Shown here in pieces: positions 236 through 64,000 of a DNA stretch of 64,000 bases. The notes beneath the pieces are model-generated. The model was not told the origin of the DNA and made no database searches. It worked only from the letters and a program-made list of their open reading frames with translations. Source of the DNA: Lepas anatifera (taxonomy: Eukaryota; Arthropoda; Thecostraca; Lepadidae); contig JAOTON010001526.1 of assembly GCA_034440635.1 (NCBI GenBank), forward strand, positions 4,783,001-4,847,000. The letters are read 5' to 3'. Position numbers and translations under genes: made by a program. The number at the start of each line of letters is the position of its first letter. Position 1 is the first letter of the stretch.

Positions 236-4823
<4,588 letters not shown>

Positions 4824-5035
4824 GGTGGCTCCAGTTGGGGACAGGGGCAGGGATGGTGGCTCCAGTTGGGGACAGGGGCAGGGATGGTGACTCCAGTTGG
4901 GGACAGGGACAGGGATGGTGACTCTGGGGGCAGGGATGGTGACTCCAGTTGGGGACAGGGGCAGGGACGGTGGCTCCAGTTGGGGAGAGGGACAGGTACG
5001 GTCGCTCCAGTTGGGGAGAGGGACAGTGGCTCTCC
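4824..5035 (+). repeat. 31-bp G-rich minisatellite
   Basis: About seven head-to-tail units, GGTGGCTCCAGTTGGGGACA plus GGGGCAGGGAT, repeat with a 31 bp period (4824, 4855 and onward) and drift toward GGGGAGAGGGACAG. The period is not a multiple of three, so all three frames stay open on both strands and produce Pro/Ser-rich pseudo-peptides. The G runs (GGGG-ACA-GGGG-CA-GGG) could form a G-quadruplex on the + strand. Confidence 0.9.
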
Positions 5036-7379
5036 GCACGTAACTACACGTTTAAAATGGATCAGAGGGGTTTGAACGGAAGGCCTGCTCAAGGTCGGAC
5101 TGGGTTTGTTATCTGTGTTTGCTGTGTAAACAGGGTGAGTGATTCAGGTTGAAGCCTCCTTTGACAGCGTTCAGTGAGGGGCCGGCGGCGGGGTGCGGAC
5201 TCTGGCCCTACCCAGGGCGGAGTGCGCATTAGTCTCAGCTGACCTTCCTGACGCTGCGACACCGCCGGCGGAAGCCCTGACGTCGCGGCGCGCTGTCAGG
5301 GGCGGAGGCGGTGGGGCCGCATCCCACAGGCCAGCATGTGAAACCTTAGGCGAGGGATTTGTAATGTATAATCAACCTTCGAGCGTTGCGGCGATGCTGA
5401 ACGAACTGAGACGGGCGTCACTCGAGGAACGATAAAGAAGGATGGGACTCGCAGTACTCTACAAAATCATCTTTGGTGTAATAAATGCACAGGGTACTAA
5501 AACCAAACTAGACCCACTCCTTGAGCTGTGTAGACGCGGATATGACCAGTAGCTCGTAGTACCGCAGAGTAGGACCGATTACCATCTTCGCCCATTCATT
5601 CCAACAACAATAACACACTGGAATGCCCAAGCAGCGGAAATCAGCGAAGCCATCTCGATTGATTCATTTGCATCACTGGACTGTTAAAATGGCCATCATT
5701 CATTGTCATCCCTGGTATTCTGATTGTGCCTTCCATTTGAGATTGATGAGCCACGCGGCACTAGAACCGATATAGAAATCCGCTCGATGATTGTTGTCAG
5801 TTATCGTGTTGACGTAGACGTATGCGGGTTTCCGGCGCCTTTTACAGGTGCGAGTAATCCGGCCCAGCCAGTGCTCTCGAGGAAGGGTATAATACAAGTG
5901 AAAGTAGCTTGAGGTGGTGCTTCCTTGAACCTGTTTTCCTTGAGTGGCAGTGAGGTCTGAAGTAGGATTCAAGTGGGATTCGGCTAGTCTGCTGACTCGC
6001 CGACTATGTCAGCGCCCTTTCCTGCGATAGGGCCTCGGCGTTTACACAGAACTTGCCCCAGCGGGTGTCTTTGGCCACGGGATCTTTGGCCACCACCGTC
6101 CAGCCCGCCAATGATGTGCGGTCATTGGCGGGCTGGACGGTGCATGTGTAGTTATCCGAGATGGCCAGCGTCATCGGTACCAGGCGGCTGCGGTCACAGT
6201 CGCTCTGAACGACCGCCTGCAGGTCGCCCTGTACGGCTGTGCTGGGATCTGCGGCCACAGCTCAATGATCCCAATCTCACGTGTTCTCTCACTCCCACTC
6301 TCAATCGCACGTGCTGGGACGAACCACTGCGGCCGCTGCTCAAAACCGCATTGGTTGCTTGCGATGAGCTGGAATTGTCCGTGAGAAATCAGTGGACGAC
6401 TAGTAACAAATATCAATATTACCGCGATGTATTGGTGCAGGTATGGATCCCTGTTGGGGGCATGGCGCTAGCAACCGGAGACATCATTGCGGCAGGCAAG
6501 ACTCATCCTTCTCTGGACCCATGGCCAGGCTTCCGGGACTGATCGTAAACCATAGTCGAAATTCATTCACAGGAGTGCTGCTGACGACCGGATGGTACCA
6601 GGCGGCTTCCCGTGTCTGCTGCTTGATGTGGGATCTGGTCTGTGTGCTCCTGTCAGAATCGCTGGCCCGCGGCCAGCACTGCTTTTCCATTTATACGCGG
6701 CTTCTGCTGTCAGATTAAGCGGAGAAAAGCGGCAACGCTCGTGATTTGGCAGGATTATTTGCTCTAATGCTATTAGTTTTCCTCCTGAGAGACACATATC
6801 ATTCGGCCGCCGTATGAGGCGGCAAAATGTGTTCGTGAAAATATCGAAGTGATATCGTCTTTTCTCAAGCTATGTTCACAGAGTTGAGTTAAATGAACCC
6901 ATTCGTCTAAAATTCGGCTCAGGGTACTTTGCCTCCAGTCCTGGACATGACGTGCCGCCGGGCTTTCTCCCGGTCTTTGCACCGTCTCACGGCCAGGGGC
7001 TGAGCCGGCTGCGAAATTGAGGCGGAACGTGTCTGAAGGAGGCTGTGAAGTCTAAGGCAGGACGTACCGTTGGACAGACTGCGTCGCGTGTCAGTGTGCC
7101 TGCCCTCGTGTCAGTCTTGGTTGGTCAGTGCAGGAGTGACACCCTACACCGTGCCAGCCAGCGATGTGTATACGTGTGACCCATCCGTGTTGGTTATTGG
7201 AGTGCGTCCGCATGTTATTACTCTGCGTCAGTGTTTGGGATGTGTCAGTGGATTTTTTCATGGCAGCCGGCTTGTGGTCTGACCCCGTCCGCGTCAGTAG
7301 CCGGTTCGTGTGGCGTCAGACCCCCGTCCCCGCCAGTGGCCTGTTCGTGTGACGTCTGACCACGTGTGTATTCCGGCAG
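5036..7379. other. GC-rich noncoding stretch upstream of a candidate syndecan exon
   Basis: Several GC-rich patches (5160-5430, 6000-6260, 6900-7370) give open frames without recognisable domains. At about 7130-7370 a loose TCGTGTGNCGTC-type motif recurs, for example as two roughly 39 bp units just before the exon at 7380. A perfect hairpin at 6094-6142 is listed separately. Confidence 0.4.
6094..6142. repeat. Perfect 21-bp inverted repeat with 7-base loop
   Basis: The left arm 6094-6114 (CACCGTCCAGCCCGCCAATGA plus its mirror at 6122-6142) is perfectly complementary across 21 bp. The loop TGTGCGG occupies 6115-6121. GC content is high, so the stem should be stable as RNA or cruciform. No terminator or microRNA-precursor role can be assigned from sequence alone. 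Confidence 0.9.
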
Positions 7380-16385: not shown

Positions 16386-17672
16386 TCAGAGCACGCACCA
16401 ACGTACAGAACACAGCATGGTGCACAGGCCAACGTACGCTGTCAGGCCATAACAAGGCCCGAAATTTGGGCTAGTCAGAACACATGTCAGTATACTGGTT
16501 GGTAAGGACACAGGGCAGCATGCTGGCTAGTAAGAACACAGGGCAGAATACTGGCTAATAAGGACACAGAGCAGAATACTGGCTAATAAGGACACAGGGC
16601 AGCATTCTGGCTAGTAAGAACACAGGGCAGAATACTGGCTAATAAGGACACAGGGTAGAATACTGGCTAATAAGGACGCAGGGCGGCATACTGGCTAGTG
16701 AGAACACAGGGCAGAATGCTGGCTAATAAGAACACAGGACAGAATACTGGCTAATAAGAACACAGGGCAGCATACTGGCTAGTAAGAACACAGGGCAGCA
16801 TACTGGCTAGTAAGGACACAGGGCAGAATACTGGCTAATAAGGACACCTGGCAGAATTCTGGCTAGTGAGAACACAGGTCAGAATACTGGCTAATAAGGA
16901 CACAGGGCAGCATACTGGCTAGTGAGAACACAGGGCAGCATACTGGCTCGTAAGAACACAGGCAGCATACAGGCTAGTAAGAAGCACATGGCTGCATACT
17001 GGCTAAGAAGAACACAGAGCAGCATACTGGCTAACAAGAACACAGAGCAGCATACAGGCTAACAAGAACACAGAGCAGCATACAGGCTAACAAGGACACG
17101 GAGCAGCATACAGGCTAACAAGAACACAGATCAGCATACAGGCTAACAAGAACACAGAGCAGCATACTGGCTAGTAAGAACACAGGGCAGAATACTGGCT
17201 AGTGAGAACACAGGACAGAATACTGGCTAGTAAGAACACGGCAGCATACAGGCTAGTGAGAACACGGCAGCGTACAGGCTAATAAGAGTACAGGGCAGCA
17301 TACTGGCTAGTAAGAACACAGGTCAGCATACCGAACACCGCCTGACATCCTGACTGGTCAAAACAGAGCCCAGCACTCAGACAGGTCAGAATGCGATCTG
17401 GCTTATATAACACAGCCCGTCGTACTGGCAGATCAAAACACAGCTCAGCATGCTGGCAGGTCAGAACACTGTCCAGTATTCTGGCAGGTCAGAACACAGC
17501 TCAACATGCTGGCAGGTCAGGACACTGCCCGATATTCTGGCAGGTCAGAACACAGCTCAGCATGCTGGCAGGTCAGGACAGTGCCCGGTATTCTGGCAGG
17601 TCAGAACACAGCTCAGCATGCTGGCAGGTCCCGTATTCTGGCAGGTCAGAACACAGCTCAGCATGCTAGAAG
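16386..17672 (+). repeat. 28-bp intronic minisatellite resembling the exon's 5' splice junction
   Basis: About 43 units of 28 bp (counted by hand) fill the first half of the last syndecan intron. The first ~31 units are of the form GGCTAGTAAGAACACAGGGC plus AGCATACT. The last ~8 are GGCAGGTCAGAACACAGCTC plus AGCATGCT, alternating with a GGACACTGCCCGATATTCT variant. The true junction reads CATACTAGCAG|GTCAGAGCAC and differs from the unit CATGCTGGCAGGTCAGAACAC at three of 21 positions. Many units thus keep a GTCAGA, GTAAGA or GTGAGA donor-like hexamer. Confidence 0.95.
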
Positions 17673-17803
17673 ACTTGGTATATGTGGAGATACAAGTGTA
17701 ATGCAAACTCATATACCTGCATTATCGCCGCTGATATACCCGTCCCACATCGCCGGAATAGCGGGGCTGGGAAGGAATTTGGCAACACAGAGCTGGAATT
17801 ATT

Positions 17804-18597
17804 ATGTTTCAGTGGCCGTGATGTCTGTGGCGTGTACTGAGCGCATGTTTCAGTGGCCGTGATGTCTGTGGTGTGTACTGAGCGCATGTTTCAGTGGCCG
17901 TGATGTCTGTGGCGTGTACTGAGCGCATGTTTCAGTGGCCGTGACGTCAGTAGCGTGTACTGAGCGCATGTTTCAGTGGCCGTGATGTCTGTGGCGTGTA
18001 CTGAGCGCATGTTTCAGTGGCCGTGATGTCTGTGGCGTGTACTGAGCGCATGTTTCAGTGGCCGTGATGTCTGTGGCGTGTACTGAGCGCATGTTTCAGT
18101 GGCCGTGATGTCTGTGGCTGTACTGAGCGCATGTTTCGTGGCTGTGATGTCTGTGGCGTGTACGAGCGCATGTTTCAGTGGCCGTGATGTCTGTGACGTG
18201 TACTGAGCGCATGTTTCAGTGGCCGTGATGTCTGTGACGTGTACTGAGCGCATGTTTCAGTGGCCGTGATGTCTGTGGCGTGTACTGAGCGCATGTTTCA
18301 GTGGCCGTGATGTCGGTGGCGTGTACTGAGCGCATGTTTCAGTGGCCGTGATGTCTGTGGCGTGTACTGAGCGCATGTTTCAGTGGCCGTGATGTCTGTG
18401 GCGTGTACTGAGCGCATGTTTCAGCGGCCGTGACGTCAGTAGGGTGTACTGTGCGCATGTTTCAGTGGCCGTGACGTCAGTAGGGTGTACTGTGCGCATG
18501 TTTCAGTGGCCGTGACGTCAGTAGGGTGTACTGAGCGCATGTTTCAGCGGCCGTGACGTCAGTAGGGTGTACTGAGCGCATGTTTCAGTGGCTATGA
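17804..18597 (+). repeat. 41-bp intronic minisatellite with acceptor-like TTTCAG in each unit
   Basis: About 19 full units and a partial one, period 41 bp, of the form ATGTTTCAGTGGCCGTGATG plus TCTGTGGCGTGTACTGAGCGC. Nearly every unit contains TTTCAG; one has TTTCGTG. At least five units (near 17940 and 18430-18570) read TGACGTCA, a palindromic CRE-type site, where the others read TGATGTCT. The array ends about 200 bp before the true acceptor at 18799. Antisense frames with ITATETCAQYT are repeat translations. Confidence 0.96.
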
Positions 18598-27716: not shown

Positions 27717-27721
27717 CACCG

Positions 27722-27757
27722 CACAGTGTTATAAGCGGCCGCGAAAACGGACAGAAT
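27722..27757 (+). repeat. Left terminal inverted repeat of the RAG1-like transposon
   Basis: 36 bp beginning CACAGTGTTATAAGC. It differs from the right end at positions 10, 15 and 33 only. The first seven bases are identical to the consensus heptamer of V(D)J recombination signals. Twelve bases later comes GCGAAAACG, which matches the nonamer ACAAAAACC at six of nine positions. Confidence 0.93.
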
Positions 27758-28659
27758 ACCCCAAAACCGACTCCCGTATTTCAGTAAATAACCTTAACTG
27801 GCCCCTACAGAATTGTCTGGTGCATGCGTTTTTGATATTCATTTGGTTGTGGCTGATCTCGTCCTGCCCCTATATTGCTTCAAAGTTGCCACTTCTTCAT
27901 GCTCGTCCCGCGGATGAATGACGTCGTTTTCATACTGCCTTTTTCTTAATCCTGCTGCGCGTAGGTTTATCGGCGGATTTTTTTATTGTGTGGTATCAAA
28001 TGATAGTTTGATGTCTGTTTTATAAGATCAATTATATTATTAAGCCATGCACCATTTACCCAAGGATCACTGACCCCGAAATAACGCTATGTTTTTTTCC
28101 GTTTTCAACTCGGAGTATTTTGTTCAACTAGTCTCACACTTTTGTGAACAAAAGTGAACAATTCAATTTACGTGTCAGGAGAAAGCCCAATAAATTCTGG
28201 ACAGGAGCCATCATGACTTTTTTGCATAGTTTTGCATATATACGGCTGAGACGGCATTGGAGACGGCGGTGCCCCGATCTCGGCGGCAGTTAAGGCACGA
28301 ACGCGTCGCGCGCCGACTCAGCTTACACCGGCGCGCGTGCCCTTCGACGGGTGAATTTGATGCCTTAGGGCTGGGGTTGTATCTGGCACTGGCGGTATTT
28401 CACCAAAAGAGAGAAAGTTTCATTGATTTCCACAACAGTTCAGAAAGTCACTGCCCCGGAAATTGTCATGTATTGCTAGGCTTGTTTAGGGTAAGTGTTG
28501 GTCAGGGATATACTTCCATCCGTGTGTACGGTAAGTCCTGTAACAGGTCAAAGAGTATTGTGACACCTCTGCTCTGTGAATACTTCCCTGGTACAGAGCA
28601 ATACTTCAGGTTTAGCCTCAGCCGTGCGAAGAACAGTGTCGTGGTTACGTGCAGGGATA
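27758..28659 (+). promoter_or_regulatory. 5' region of the RAG1-like transposon
   Basis: Noncoding between the left repeat and the probable start codon. TATATA at 28237-28242 could be a core promoter about 420 bp upstream of the ATG. A strong donor-like AGG|GTAAGT at about 28488 and an acceptor-like GTGCAG at 28649-28654 could bound a 5'UTR intron ending five bases before the ATG. A perfect 8 bp stem, CACTTTTG-TGAA-CAAAAGTG, lies at 28137-28156. A 142-codon frame at 28257-28685 overlaps in another frame and has no known domain. Confidence 0.4.
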
Positions 28660-30909
28660 ATGGAGTTCCGAGTGAGCAACGCTGAGCTGTTCAAACGGCT
28701 GAAGGAAAACGCTCTTTTTCGGAAGAACAGAGGAGATTTTGTCGATGCTGCTTTTAATGATACTATTGATTTCTTAGGCTTTCACAGAGCGAGCATTTCA
28801 CGCAATTCAGAGGATGCAATCCGAAAGAAGCTGGTGTCCTTCCATATCATTTTCAAGAGAAAAGTGGAACAGTGTTCCAGATCAATCGTGGCGTGCGAAA
28901 GCAAAGAAACCGACTGGTTGGCGGAGGACATATGTGAGCCCATCACACTTGCGGATAAACAGGCTACAGTTTCTACCGGAAAACGCCACCCAGGCCGGCC
29001 TCCCACTCCGTACGACGCAGTCGGAGAGCGGAGCAAGAGACGTCGCGTCGCCAGTACTGCTGAACAGCATGGTACCCACGAGCTCGTCATGGCTGCCGCC
29101 CGAAGTGCCAAAACAGACGACGATTCAGAGCTATCAGCTGTGCTAAAGGAAAGCGTCGCTACTCCAACTCGGCCCTCCAAGCTTCGCCGTGGAATGCGCG
29201 ATAGTGCTAGGCTACAGAAGGCTCGTGCTCTAACTCCAGATGAAGCCCTGGCTGTTACCGTATCGGCAGACATGTCAACAAAAAGTTATAACATCGTGAG
29301 GAAGATGACAAATAAAGTAAGTGCGAAAGAAGTGTACCCGCCCCATTATAAAGTTGTGAACGCTCGGCAGAGATGTTTTCCTGGCGAACACATCAGTGTA
29401 ACCGACAGCTCTGCCGAAGTGCCACTGCAAGTCATATTAGACCATACGACAAGGAGACTGATAGAGGCCGAGGTTGACCCCACAAAGGTCGGAGCTGACG
29501 TCAGCCAGCCTCAGCCAGGTACATCAGAACAACAGCCGATCCGCAGTGAGGCTGTATCTGGAAAACTGTACTGTAAATGGGGATTTGATGGCGCCACTGG
29601 ACAATGTATATATAAGCAAGCGGCGCAGGGTGGTGCTGCTATGGATGAAGGTAACATATTTTGCTCATCGTTTGTCCCTCTACGATTGGAGATTAACGAC
29701 AAATGCGTGTGGATCAACGAAAAGCCGTCGTCAACTCGGTATTGCCGTCCAATGCACCTTCAATATGTCAAGGAAACCACCGCAGTCTCCCGGCAAGAGA
29801 TGAACAACTTTTCTACCCAGATAGAGGAGCTCCAGCCCTGTGCAGTCGACCTCGCTGGGACCACTGTTCTGGTATCGTACAGTATGCAGTTGACAATGGT
29901 AGATGGGAAAGTTGCGAATGCACTGACTGGGACAGCGTCATCTCAAAGATGTCACATCTGTGGAGCTAAGCCGACTGAGATGAATGACTTAGAACAAGTT
30001 CGTCAGAAGGTGGCAAACAAAGAGGCTTATCAGTTTGGTCTCTCAACACTCCATGCGTGGATTAGACTTTTTGAACTTGTACTTCACATTGGCTATCGTC
30101 TTAAGCTTAAAGTGTGGTCCGTGAAGAAGGCTCAGAGGGAAGAGTATCTGGCCGAGAAGAAGCGAATCCAGGCTGAGTTCTACGAGAAAATGGGTCTGCA
30201 TGTAGACCAGCCACGTGCAGGTGGAGCGGGGTCATCAAACGACGGCAACACGGCGCGCCGAGCCTTTGCAGATCCAGCTACCTTCAGCAGCATCACTGGA
30301 GTCGACATTGGCCTCATCACTCGGTTCTCAATGATACTGCGGGCTCTAGCATCGACCAAGCCAGTAGATCCAGACAAATTCCAAGCATTCGCCCTGAAGA
30401 CGGCTACGGAGTACTGTAGATTATATCCATGGTTTTACATGCCTGCCTCCTTGCATAAACTTCTAATGCATGGGGCAGAGGTGATTCGATCACTGATTCT
30501 ACCCATCGGTGCATATAGCGAGGAAGCACAAGAATCACAAAATAAAAACGTGAGATGGTGTAGACTGAAAAGGACCCGAAAAACCTCGCGCCGAGACAAT
30601 ACTCTGGATCTGTTTCGGGCTCTGTGTGTTATGAGTGATCCCGTGGTCGTGGGCATTATCCACCGTGATGTGCAAGCCATGCAACGTGAGTGCTCCAAGG
30701 GAATTGAAAAGGGTTTGCCTTGTGACGAGCTTGCAGAGCTGCTAGTGCAGGAAGAAATGTCACCGAACACACTCACCGAGCAGCGCCCAGGCAGTGACTC
30801 TGAGTCCGGCTCGGACTCCGATGAGCCAGAAATAGAGCGCAGTAGCACGTTCGACCTCTCATGCCTTCTACCAACCTATTACTGCGCAGACGACTCGAAC
30901 CAGAGATGA
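28660..30909 (+). CDS. RAG1/Transib-like DDE transposase
   Basis: 749-residue intact frame. I start it at ATG 28660 (MEFRVSNAELFKRL); an in-frame ATG at 28576 would add 28 residues that look like leader. Residues 107-130 are basic with an AT-hook-like GRPP. The catalytic core shows KWGFDGATGQC (D310), LTMVDGKVANALTG (D415), a zinc-binding CHIC (C431, C434), NDGNTARR near 570, HKLLMH (H599, H604) and SEEAQESQNK (E625). These match in order and local context the RAG1 residues D600, D708, C727/C730, H937/H942 and E962. The enzyme should cut at the terminal CACAGTG by a hairpin-forming mechanism and insert with 5 bp duplication. The C-terminus is acidic, about 712-728. No stop or frameshift, so it may be active. 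Subfamily assignment is inference. Confidence 0.92.
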   Translation: MEFRVSNAELFKRLKENALFRKNRGDFVDAAFNDTIDFLGFHRASISRNSEDAIRKKLVSFHIIFKRKVEQCSRSIVACESKETDWLAEDICEPITLADKQATVSTGKRHPGRPPTPYDAVGERSKRRRVASTAEQHGTHELVMAAARSAKTDDDSELSAVLKESVATPTRPSKLRRGMRDSARLQKARALTPDEALAVTVSADMSTKSYNIVRKMTNKVSAKEVYPPHYKVVNARQRCFPGEHISVTDSSAEVPLQVILDHTTRRLIEAEVDPTKVGADVSQPQPGTSEQQPIRSEAVSGKLYCKWGFDGATGQCIYKQAAQGGAAMDEGNIFCSSFVPLRLEINDKCVWINEKPSSTRYCRPMHLQYVKETTAVSRQEMNNFSTQIEELQPCAVDLAGTTVLVSYSMQLTMVDGKVANALTGTASSQRCHICGAKPTEMNDLEQVRQKVANKEAYQFGLSTLHAWIRLFELVLHIGYRLKLKVWSVKKAQREEYLAEKKRIQAEFYEKMGLHVDQPRAGGAGSSNDGNTARRAFADPATFSSITGVDIGLITRFSMILRALASTKPVDPDKFQAFALKTATEYCRLYPWFYMPASLHKLLMHGAEVIRSLILPIGAYSEEAQESQNKNVRWCRLKRTRKTSRRDNTLDLFRALCVMSDPVVVGIIHRDVQAMQRECSKGIEKGLPCDELAELLVQEEMSPNTLTEQRPGSDSESGSDSDEPEIERSSTFDLSCLLPTYYCADDSNQR

Positions 30910-30964
30910 GCGCTCAGGTGAGTTTTACATTTTACAATGAAAAGACCGGGACACTTTTCGGGGT

Positions 30965-31458
30965 CATGGTTAAATCTGAAATATACCGGAAAACAATTCA
31001 GGCAAATGAAAATCTGCCATCACCGGCCATTAAGTTTGGATTACTTTTGCGAGTTGATCGATATGCATATTGATTATGTTAGGTTGGAAAGTGACCTTGA
31101 CCTGACCTCAGGTCATGTTATTTTTGTGTTATGACCTAGCATAGTCATATTATACATCATTCGTTTCGCCGTGACGAGAGGAAGGGAATGGTGCCTAAAA
31201 AATGATTCTGACTCAACTCTGTCAGACGGTAGAGCCCAAAACACTACCCTAACATGCCACCTTCTTTGACCTATCATGGCCTCAATATTGACCTGAACCA
31301 AAAAGTGACCGATATAGATTCTTCATGAATTTGTATGAGCTATCCACCAGCCTTCGCGTTTTCTCGCTATCTCGCATAGGAGCCAAGTTCGAAGAGGGGG
31401 ATGTTCAAACACCCCCCACCAGGGCGAAGGTGGGTCGGAGGGCCCACCGGGGCGCGGG
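30965..31458 (+). mobile_element. TTAA element family B, 3' fragment nested in the transposon (B2)
   Basis: The right end is clear: the A/B-type double terminus with GGGCGAAGGTGGGTCGGAGG finishes GGGGCGCGGG, followed by TTAA at 31459-31462. The interior shares blocks with B1 (GACCTAGCATAGTCATATTATACAT against GACCTAGCAAGATCATATTATACAT, in part). No matching left terminus is evident, so the start is approximate. Confidence 0.6.
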
Positions 31459-31556
31459 TTAAGTGTCAAATTTGGTGTCAAAAGGTGTGGTGAGTGTTAA
31501 AGTACACATCAGTTTTTGTTTCATGAGGCTCCGTCACTTAGTTCGCGAGATATTGA

Positions 31557-31592
31557 ATTATGTCCGTTTTCGCGGCCCCTTACAACACTGTG
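31557..31592 (-). repeat. Right terminal inverted repeat of the RAG1-like transposon
   Basis: The + strand ends CCTTACAACACTGTG at 31592; inverted, it begins CACAGTGTTGTAAGGGG. It matches the left repeat at 33 of 36 positions and keeps the same heptamer, 12 bp gap and GCGAAAACG block. Confidence 0.93.
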
Positions 31593-31597
31593 CACCG

Positions 31598-35519: not shown

Positions 35520-38500
35520 AAGGGACCCCACATAAGCACAGGGCCCTAAAAGCTCCGAACAGGGCGCCCCAGATTATCTCAGGAAGCCAGGCTGGCTTAG
35601 GGGCCCGGCTCAGCTCAGGGACACCCAGGTTGGCTGATATAGGGTCTCAGGACAGCTCAATGGACCAACTCAAGCTCATGGCCCCCAGCTTAGCTCAGCG
35701 GGTCCTATAATTGGGCAGGGGGCGCCAGACTAGCTCAGGGGCCGCTCAGTTCAGCAGAGGGGCCTCATATTAATTTAGAGCCCAAACTAGCTTTGGCGGC
35801 CTAGTTCAGCTCAGGTCGGCTGGTGTAGAGCTCAGAACAGCTCAAGAGACCCATTCAAGTTCATCGCCCCTAGCTCAGCTCAGCGGACTTAATAACAGTG
35901 CAGGTGGCCCAGACCATCTCAGGGGCTGTTCAGTTCATCACAGGGCGCCTGAGATTAGCTAAGGGCCCAAATTAGCTTTTAGGGGTCTAGCTAAGCTCAG
36001 GGTCCCAAGTCGGCTGATGTAGGGCCTCAGAATAGCTCAACGGTTCCAGCTCAGTGACTCTAAAGTATTAAGGGATCCCAGACCATCTCGGTGTCCCCAG
36101 TTCAGTACAGCGGGCCCCAGATTAGCTCAGGTGACCAGATCAGCTTAGGAGCCCGGCTCAGCTAAGGGGCCCCAGGTCGGCCTATATAGCGTCTCAGAAC
36201 AGCTTAAAGGGAATGTGGCACCTTGGTCGAATCCTGAAATTTAGTGTATTTAGGCGTACTTTTAGCCGAACATAATGAAACCACTCATGATTTCTCTGAA
36301 AAATGTACAATAAGCTCAATATTTTGATTTTTAAAATACTCCTTTAGGAAAAGAAATAAATATCAGCCTGTGGATGATGTCATGATCTGGCAACCACTAC
36401 CATACTTGAAACGCTTCAAGGGCTTCAATTGGCTGATGTTCATCGTTACGTCAGCATATGTTGTCACACCAACAGCCATGACAACTGTGGCCTGCTGCTA
36501 GGGTTACAAGAGAGGTACATTGCAGGTAGGTTTTAGCTTTTTTCTACGGAAATTTCTAGTTCCAAGACAAATGATATATTGAGTACCGGGTTTTCCGACT
36601 TGCTTTACAACTTGGCTATCTCAATTAAAATCACGTTATGAAGGTACCACCTTCCCTTTAAGGAGGTCACTTTAAGCTCATGGCCCCCAGCTCAGCTCAG
36701 GGGCCGTATAAATGAGCCCCAGATAAGCTCAGGATCCACAGCTTAGCTCTCAGGCCCTCCTAAGACCAACACTTAGCGGCACTCGCGAGGCTAATTTTCG
36801 CCCCCCCCCGATTAGCTGTCAGGGGCCCCTGGGCCTTATTACCAGGACCTCTTAGACCAAACCGAGGGGGCCCCTGAGTATATATCGGAGCTCCTAAGAT
36901 AAATTCTCGGCAGCACCTCTGAGACTACCTATCGGACCCCCCAGATTTGGTCTCGGGTGGCCTCAGACATAGAGTCTTGGGGTCATCCAGGTTAGCTCTT
37001 GGAGTACCCTGAGATTGATTTTCGGGGGCCCCTGGGACTGACTCCCGATAGCAATCTGAGACTAATACTGGGGCACCCCCTGAGACTAACACTCGGGGGG
37101 TGTCCCTGAGACTGAGCAATTGGCCCTTCTGAGACCTACTCTAGGAGGCCCCAGACTAGCCCTCAGGGGTCTAAGGCCAACATGGAGCCCGTGAGACCAA
37201 AACTCGGGAGAACTTCTTGGGATTACTCTCAGAGCTCCAAAATTAGCTCTCGGATGCCCCTGGGACTGACTTCGGGGGAGGGGCCTCTGAGACTAGCTTT
37301 TGAGCGCTCCCCGAGGCTGATTCTTGGGGCCCCTTAGACAAAAACTCGGGGGGACAACCTGAGGCTAATTCTCGAGGGCATCCAAGATCACCTCTCCACG
37401 GCCCCCTGAGACCATCACTCTGCTGCACAAATGAGACTAACTCTCGGGACTCCAGATGATCACTCGGGGCCCCCTGAAAGTAAATATTGTCTCCTGAGAA
37501 AGGCACCCTTGAGACTATGAGGGGCCCCTGAGACCAGCACTTGGCGGCACTCATGACACTAATTCTCGGGCCCCATATTAGCTTTCGGGGCCCTTGAGAG
37601 AAGGTCCCCTTAGACCAACACTGATGGGGTATTTGATAATAACTTATCCTGAGATTAGTTCCCAGGGACCCCTGAGACCGACTCCCAGGGCCCCCTGAGA
37701 ACGACTCTCGAGGGACCCCTTAGACCGATTCTCAGGGGGGCGGGGCTTCTGAGGCTGACTCTCGGGGCCCTGAGCTCGACTCTCGGAGACCCCCTGAGAC
37801 TGACTCTTGGGGTCCCCTGAGACCGACTTCCAGGAGCCTCCTGAAACTAACTTTGGGGGTCTGAGACATAATCTCGGGGAGTGGGAGGCTGAGACCGACT
37901 CTCGGACCCTCTGAGACCGACTTTCGGGGGTCCCTTGCGACCACCTCTCAGGGGCCCTGGAAACCAACTTTCGGAGAGCCCCTGAGACCACGTCTCGGGG
38001 GCCCCTAAGACCAACTCTTGGAGCCCCTAAGACCAACTCTTGGGACCCCTAATGCTAACTCTCGGGGCGGAGGGCCCTGAGACCGACTCGGGGCCCCTAT
38101 GAACAAATCTCGTGTGCCCCTGAGACTGACTCTGGGGCCCCCCTGATCAGAGAATCCTTTACAGTGCTTATGATCGGCCCAAGGGCGGGGGAGGGATCCG
38201 CGAACCCCTTGGACTCTCCTTGGCTACTCTACTGGTTCCAGTCCACCTCGGGGGGTGGGCAGTTCTGCACAGTGGGTCGCAGATTAGCTCAGATGACCAG
38301 ATCAGCTTCGGAGCCCGGCTCAGCTCAGGGGTCCCAGATCGGCTTATATAGCGCCTAAGAACAGCTCAAGGAGGCCACTTCAAGCTCAGCTCAGGGGCCC
38401 TATAACTCTGCGTGAGCCCCAGATAAGCTCAGGAGCCCCAGTTTAGCACAGGGGGCATCATATTAGCTTTGAGGGCCCAGCTCAGCTCAGGGGCCCCAGA

Positions 38501-38780
38501 TCGCCTTGTATAGGGTCTTTGACCAGCTCAAGGGGCCCATTCAGGCTGATGGCTCCCAGTTCAGCTTAGGGACCATGCAATAGTTCAGAGGGGCATAAAC
38601 CAGGTCGAGGGACCTTAGACTAGCTCAAGGAGCCCCAGGTTAGCTCATAGGACATCAGAGGTTAATTCAGGGGCCCCTGAACAGCTCAGGGGCCCCAGGC
38701 CGACTCATAAGACCCCAGATCAGCTCAGGGGTCCAGGCCAGCTTTATAAGAGGTTTTCCGAGCAAGCTATAGAGTCCGTT
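35520..38780 (+). repeat. GC-rich degenerate higher-order minisatellite
   Basis: Two intermingled motif blocks. In 35520-36200 and 38275-38780, AGCTCAGGGGCCCCAG-like subunits of about 20 bp form a higher-order unit of roughly 190 bp, marked by GGTNGGCTGATATAGGG at about 35627, 35814, 36007 and 36175. In 36740-38160 a second subunit, CCCCTGAGACTGACTCTCGG (about 25 bp), dominates. The block is split by a C element at 36208-36657. Frames through it read SQGPRESVS-like peptides and are artefacts of the repeat. Confidence 0.85.
36208..36657 (-). mobile_element. TTAA element family C, copy C3 (450 bp)
   Basis: Flanked by TTAA at 36204-36207 and 36658-36661, with ends AGGGAATGTGGCACCTT and, inverted, AGGGAAGGTGGTACCTT. 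Reverse orientation relative to C4 and C5. It sits in a satellite unit whose paralogue at 38361-38380 lacks the element and shows the unoccupied site, giving direct evidence of TTAA insertion. No coding frame. Confidence 0.92.
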
Positions 38781-62562: not shown

Positions 62563-64000
62563 ATGTGTTCTAAAATTACTAGAAATCAATGGATATACCT
62601 AGCCATGCTCTTGAATATAAATATCTGGTTAATTAGAACTGGCATCGAAACTAACCCCGGGCCACAGTCCAGCAATGATCATCTTCGAATTTGTAGTGTT
62701 AATATTAACAGCATCACTGCAGATGGGAGGATTCAAGAACTTGAGCAATTCATTAACCACAACAACATTGGGTGTTTAGAACTTGTGGAAACCAAATTTG
62801 ACGACTCTATCGATCCTTGCGTATATAAACTGTCTGATTTTCATCCGCCCATCACTCGTCATAGGACTGGGAAAGGAGGTGGTGTAGCGCTTTACTTTCA
62901 CTCTTCATTAGCAATTACTCGCCTGGATAGTTTAGAAGTAGACGAGATCGAATGGATTTGGGCAAAAGTTAAACTGAAAAATGATAATATTATAGTTTGT
63001 TGCATGTATTGACCACCTGGCTCTAATGCCGACTGGAAGGAAATGTTTTTAGAACAGTTGGCTGAAAAGGTTAGCTTAGCAAAAACTCATAACCCGTCAA
63101 ACACAATTTTGCTAGGCGATCTTAACTCGGGAAATAATTACTTAAAACATGCTTTCTCAAATCACTCACCGATAACATCATTTGAAAGGCATTTAAAGTC
63201 AACGGCAGACTCCTTAGAACTAGTTCAAATGATTGACGAACCAACTAGGGTACAAGGAAATGTTCACAATTTACGGGACCTGTGTTTTGCTCTGAATGCT
63301 AATGGCGTCTCGGACAGTGGAGTATTTTCTTCCGTCTCAAATCTAGACCACTTCCCGATATACGTTTCCGTAAAAAATTGTCTATCCCCTCGCATTCAAA
63401 CACAAAAGGAAATATGGGACTATAGTAAATTAGACACGAACCAACTAACTTTCTCATGTCGACCAACTGGCACGCCATTCTGGTCAATGGTATGGACAAT
63501 GCTGTCGGCTTATTTACAACAAAGCTCTTGGACGTGGCAACATTGACCATTCCAACAAAAAATATTTTCCTCAGGGCAAGAGACAAACCATGGGTGAATA
63601 GTACAATCAAGTTACTTTTAAGAAAACGAGACAGGGCTTTCAAAAAAGCGAAAAAACTCCAGGAGCAGTAAAGATTCGAATCATCCAAGTGCTAAGCTTG
63701 CGTGGGAAAAATGGAGGTTATGTAGGAATCAAGCCACAAGTGAAACGCGTAGAGTTAAGGACCAATATATGTCAGCTAAGACACAGGCTGTTCTAATTAG
63801 TAAAGTTAATCCACATAAATACCATTCAACTCTAAAAGAATTGACGGGCCGCAAAAAGCATGCCGAAATTCCTCCCTTAACTGCCAGCAACAATGCGGTG
63901 ATCAATGGCAGCTTGGAAAAAGCAAACGCTTTCAATTCCTTTTTCGTGTCGCAATCAATCCTTGACATGAATGAGCCAGACGAAATAGTAACAGAGCCAC
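62563..64000 (+). pseudogene. CR1/L2-like LINE ORF2, endonuclease part, decayed and cut by window end
   Basis: From ATG 62563 the frame reads a hydrophobic leader (WIYLAMLLNINIWLI) and the 2A-like GIETNPGP, then an APE-type endonuclease with VNINSI, VETKFD, GKGGGVALYF, LLGDLNSG and SNLDHFPIYV, the expected order of catalytic motifs. A TGA at 63010-63012 interrupts the usual YxPPGS motif in frame. The frame shifts near 63450 and again by about 63700, after which it runs open to the window end through a linker ending NAFNSFFVSQS, typical of the segment before reverse transcriptase. With one stop and two shifts this copy cannot make the full enzyme. The clade (CR1, L2 or Rex-like) is inferred from motifs. 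Confidence 0.9.

Follow-up and report, generated by a model that had tools for sequence, protein, structure and literature searches.

A young, full-length Transib transposon with an intact transposase frame in the barnacle Lepas anatifera

Is a Transib-like element in a barnacle genome a self-sufficient transposon, a RAG-like element that has lost a partner gene, a host gene recruited from a transposon, or the remnant of a dead family? The element lies in a 64,000 nucleotide stretch of Lepas anatifera DNA (GenBank assembly GCA_034440635.1, contig JAOTON010001526.1, positions 4,783,001 to 4,847,000 of the forward strand), hereafter the window, for which an earlier note made from the letters alone had reported a complete RAG1/Transib-type transposon at 27717-31597. 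That span holds, with the refinement that it takes in both copies of the target-site duplication (TSD); the element proper occupies 27722-31592 (3,871 bp) and is flanked on each side by CACCG. It is almost certainly an autonomous cut-and-paste DNA transposon of the Transib superfamily with one gene, encoding a 749-residue DDE transposase, and its membership of that superfamily is supported by homology, residues, heptamer ends and 5 bp duplication alike (Table 1).

Table 1. Features of the Transib element, in window positions
Feature	Position	Strand	Evidence
Left TSD, CACCG	27717..27721	.	single copy in 3 aligned paralogous empty sites
Left terminal inverted repeat, starting CACAGTG	27722..27757	+	33/36 match to right end; pattern recurs genome-wide
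Transib transposase, single open frame of 749 aa + stop	28660..30909	+	phmmer HzTransib E 7e-103; model mean pLDDT (predicted local distance difference test) 84.7
N-terminal domain, residues 1-94	28660..28941	+	high-confidence prediction without convincing fold match
RAG1-NBD-like region (NBD, nonamer-binding domain), residues 112-186, AT-hook-like GRP	28993..29217	+	profile alignment and structural register
Catalytic core, residues 189-675	29224..30684	+	
Catalytic D310	29587..29589	+	D in 37/37 alignment rows
Catalytic D415	29902..29904	+	D in 36/37 rows, 1 gap
CxxC zinc ligands 431/434	29950..29961	+	C431 in 36/37 rows (1 gap), C434 in 37/37
HxxxxH zinc ligands 599/604	30454..30471	+	H at each in 36/37 rows, 1 gap
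Catalytic E625	30532..30534	+	E in 36/37 rows, 1 gap
Right terminal inverted repeat	31557..31592	-	33/36 match with left end
Right TSD, CACCG	31593..31597	.	read directly

Searched against solved structures with phmmer, the transposase matches HzTransib at E 7.4e-103 (348.6 bits), compared with E 0.0044 (18.9 bits) for the best RAG1 and E 0.3 (12.8 bits) for amphioxus RAG1L; a 37-row profile, built from the window protein and 36 of 120 listed homologues, gives 657.2 bits for HzTransib, at most 55.4 for RAG1 and 52.7 for RAG1L. The predicted fold matches HzTransib and the RAG1 core, as the earlier note had expected. Translation reproduces the 749-codon frame, and every residue that the note had named (D310, D415, C431, C434, H599, H604, E625) is present and lines up with HzTransib and RAG1. 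D310, D415 and E625 align to HzTransib chain positions 109, 208 and 419 (counted by hand along the alignment), which with a constant offset of 17 are the D126, D225 and E436 of the published triad (accessible part of PMC6941560); judged from this alignment, the acidic and zinc residues would cluster in space. The description of the element as a living relative of RAG1 stands in the sense in which it would for any Transib, the protein being far nearer to HzTransib than to RAG1.

A homologue search found 135 relatives at E < 0.001 among 7,995 scored candidates, 120 of which were listed; the nearest of those listed, P0001, is 76% identical and lacks the stretch holding D415 and C431. A quick 66-row tree, with no RAG1L rows and no row labelled Subgroup I, joins the window protein to P0001 (Shimodaira-Hasegawa-like approximate likelihood ratio test, SH-aLRT, 100), then to P0002 (100), then to P0003-P0005 (97). 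A short LPxYYC motif near the C-terminal end (30868-30885), downstream of a low-confidence acidic tail, occurs among the 120 listed homologues only in P0001-P0005 (5/120). Several near relatives share the starting methionine of the transposase, which makes a single-exon gene probable. In the NBD-like region R113 is found in 40/40 aligned rows and GRP in 34/40, the profile alignment extends to GGRPR of zebrafish RAG1, and the structural register equates R113 with R391 of mouse RAG1. The N-terminal domain carries a K-W-R-F-WL pattern common to many Transib rows (W69 in 32/40), with V69 and C79 here in place of the usual W and F.

The bit scores given above also bear on the reading of the element as a RAG-like (RAGL/ProtoRAG) transposon minus its RAG2-like gene, which we regard as highly improbable: by sequence, fold and profile comparisons the core is not nearer to RAG1L or RAG1 than to Transib. 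The CCGHC motif of the CTT1 tail (letters from the available text of PMC7204232) was looked for in the 749-residue protein and is absent. The C434-H599 spacing is 165 residues versus 207 for C730-H937 of mouse (mouse numbers from the earlier note), a shorter span that would fit Transib Subgroup II, which according to excerpts of PMC9435367 lacks both the RAG2-binding alpha11-alpha12 region and the CCGHC tail. Within the element the frame is preceded by 938 bp and followed by only 683 bp, with no second long frame: its longest other open reading frame (ORF) is 163 aa, and a Pfam scan of 7 of the 17 other ORFs of at least 60 aa yielded none that reaches cut-off, a scan that spliced short exons could escape. 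The RAGL hallmark, a RAG2-like gene lying between the ends and oriented towards its RAG1-like neighbour, was not found in what was scanned, and the earlier statement that no RAG2-like gene accompanies the transposase is borne out within the element as far as scanned. Transib functions without RAG2 (PMC11844651, as excerpted).

Both ends of the Transib element open with CACAGTG, a CAC heptamer as in the superfamily, and when the terminal 36 bp of the left end were set against the reverse-complemented terminal 36 bp of the right, 33 positions were again identical; the perfect 5 bp CACCG duplication was likewise seen where reported. A 32 bp end pattern (two ambiguous positions, at most 3 mismatches) matched twice in the window versus never in 100 shuffles, and across the assembly (1.04 Gb, 2,126 contigs) it matched 249 times (132 + 117; backwards-read control 0 + 0). 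Because the pattern is absent from shuffles and abundant genome-wide, a chance origin of the ends is excluded. When the two flanks were joined and searched for (40 of 867 candidates scored), at least 40 genome matches were found, two of them the window's own halves; the remaining 38 (77-85% identical) each cross the joint, and three aligned empty sites have one CACCG and no insert. The insertion therefore landed in one unit of an interspersed repeat, of which the genome holds no fewer than 38 further copies. To domestication of a Transib as a host gene, which the intact frame and a signal of purifying selection (below) would fit, we give practically no credence: both ends and the perfect duplication are intact, the insertion site is an interspersed repeat, and intact near-copies occupy other sites, flanked by different duplications.

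A COX1 stretch in the assembly, which may be mitochondrial or a nuclear copy, is when read with code 5 identical (100%) to that of Lepas anatifera over 97% of its length, against 92% for the next named entry among the 120 of 7,999 hits listed, and most likely marks the host as this goose barnacle or a very close relative. At least 69 places in the genome match the transposase protein, a lower bound since 60 of 1,304 candidates were scored, and five of these (L001-L005) hold full stop-free frames; L006 is a full-length element carrying two stops. Kimura two-parameter (K2P) distances are 0.003-0.009 among L001-L004 and L006, with L005 at about 0.05. Ratios of nonsynonymous to synonymous substitution rates (dN/dS) among the five intact frames range from 0.23 to 0.60 (ten pairs), and from 0.25 to 0.28 in the four most-changed pairs (76-84 differences), all involving L005. 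Both ends are present at 16 of 20 fetched loci, 13 of which have a perfect 5 bp duplication, as do all seven loci of an additional set. With two repeats of one site dropped and the 7 further loci added, 18 perfect duplications remain, the first base being C in 17 and the last G in all 18 (mostly CNNNG). The earlier note had called for other copies with the same ends, and the 249 pattern matches and intact sister copies supply them. The family has also spread recently.

It is unlikely, if far from negligible, that the family has recently died, its frames intact and its mobility gone: full frames are found at only 5 of the at least 69 protein matches and 20 of 32 listed paired ends are of deleted size, whereas L001-L004 and L006 lie just 0.3-0.9% apart and the five motifs surrounding the catalytic and zinc residues occur in 5/5 full frames, which also carry the selection signal. 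Several further points weigh against the main reading as an autonomous Transib. The closest frame pair has a dN/dS of 0.60, derived from just 6 differences, and a young burst could keep frames intact without selection, although a dN/dS of about 0.26 speaks otherwise. A perfect duplication is missing at 3 of the 16 two-ended loci (L002, L005, L016). The RAG1/Transib profile match anticipated in the earlier note was obtained for HzTransib but failed for the Pfam RAG1 model, which scores the transposase at 15.6 bits, under its cut-off of 25, and a genome search with that model gave no matches, its controls being silent as well. Mobility and activity, read as they are from sequence, are probable.

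Alongside the full-length Transib copies are many shorter ones. Pairing of ends less than 15 kb apart gave 32 pairs from 64 of the 100 end-pattern places listed: 20 at 2.85-3.05 kb, 6 at 3.8-3.9 kb (one of which, C42, is a deleted copy plus an insert), 2 at about 2.0 kb and 4 larger. Most frequent among these listed pairs (20/32) is a size of about 2.98 kb, that of a deleted form. Twelve shorter loci (L009-L020; L009-L011 share one contig and one common duplication) are all missing the part of the element between about 2,400 and about 3,280-3,305. The junction, read in eight of them (L009, L014-L020), is TCCGTGAAGG, then approximately AAA, then GAAAA in both forms, with a single-base difference in L018. 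K2P distances are 0.050-0.058 between two lineages and 0.010-0.023 inside them; because both forms have the same junction, the twelve likely descend from one ancestral deletion and later split into two lineages. They retain some 480-490 first codons, including the D310 and D415 places, and have lost E625 and both histidine places; with in-frame stops now in 12/12, one may speculate that the deleted form once encoded a truncated, repressor-like protein. At another locus (L055/C714), a deleted Transib copy harbours foreign sequence at element positions of about 785-5660, and the minus strand there is open over stretches of 536 and 309 codons.

By analogy with HzTransib and RAG, a transposase dimer would bind both CACAGTG ends via the core while the N-terminal GRP/helical region grips DNA farther inside; a nick at the heptamer border, followed by hairpin formation on the flanking DNA, would free the element, and target joining with a 5 bp stagger would yield mostly CNNNG duplications. 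Intact copies probably mobilise the many internally deleted ones too. CACAGTG is the consensus heptamer of the recombination signal sequence (RSS), and ACAAAAACC is its nonamer. A block GCGAAAACG, 12 bp past the heptamer at both ends, matches this nonamer at 6/9 positions; both ends have another 6/9 match at 22 bp, and the left end has a 7/9 match at 31 bp. The window background for such a score is 1.2% at 12 bp, rising to 6.4% if both spacings, 12 and 23 bp, are admitted with 1 bp slack, and because the two ends are near-copies the block counts as one observation, making it a weak candidate for an RSS signal. That the GRP-bearing NBD-like domain of a living, RAG2-free Transib reads the GCGAAAACG block 12 bp from CACAGTG at both ends is a long shot; if true, RSS recognition would have a forerunner here of symmetric 12/12 type. 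For Transibs, PMC8355894 (in the portion available) treats both symmetric spacing and spacing of the 12/23 type.

Elsewhere in the window are long minisatellites with 28 and 41 bp units (16469-18592), more GC-rich arrays (35626-38731), and an ORF (63043-63546) weakly matching endonuclease-reverse transcriptase (PF14529, under cut-off), perhaps a remnant of a long interspersed nuclear element (LINE).

Animal Transibs, their tie to RAG1, 5 bp duplications and an NBD equivalent are already described in the accessible parts of PMC9435367, PMC7204232, PMC4411706, PMC8355894 and PMC6941560. The solved chain of HzTransib of Helicoverpa zea (PDB 6pqn, 6pqx; 497 aa) begins to align near residue 188 of the barnacle protein and lacks the N-terminal part bearing the GRP region, which the barnacle protein has. 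As far as the excerpted text of Tao et al. 2022 (PMC9435367) goes, the element resembles Transib Subgroup II in its GRP-bearing NBD-like region, absent CCGHC tail and short zinc region, although it was matched to no named member, P0001 remaining the nearest listed relative. It differs from RAGL/ProtoRAG (amphioxus RAG1L, PDB 6b40) in its low score (12.8 bits), its lack of CCGHC and the absence of any RAG2-like gene found. With vertebrate RAG1 it shares catalytic and zinc residues, the core fold and a GRP in register with GGRPR. Its heptamer also equals the RSS consensus; in contrast to RAG1, the element has no RAG2 found in it and no clear nonamer, and remains a mobile element. The superfamily itself is known; the novelty lies in this specimen, a full-length and young Transib with its frame intact, found in a barnacle and accompanied by many deleted followers. 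It may otherwise be counted as one further member of a widespread superfamily, but a full-length, probably active Transib with its N-terminal DNA-binding half would serve as a laboratory model, one that could show what the NBD-like domain of the RAG1 ancestor did before RAG2 and the 12/23 rule.
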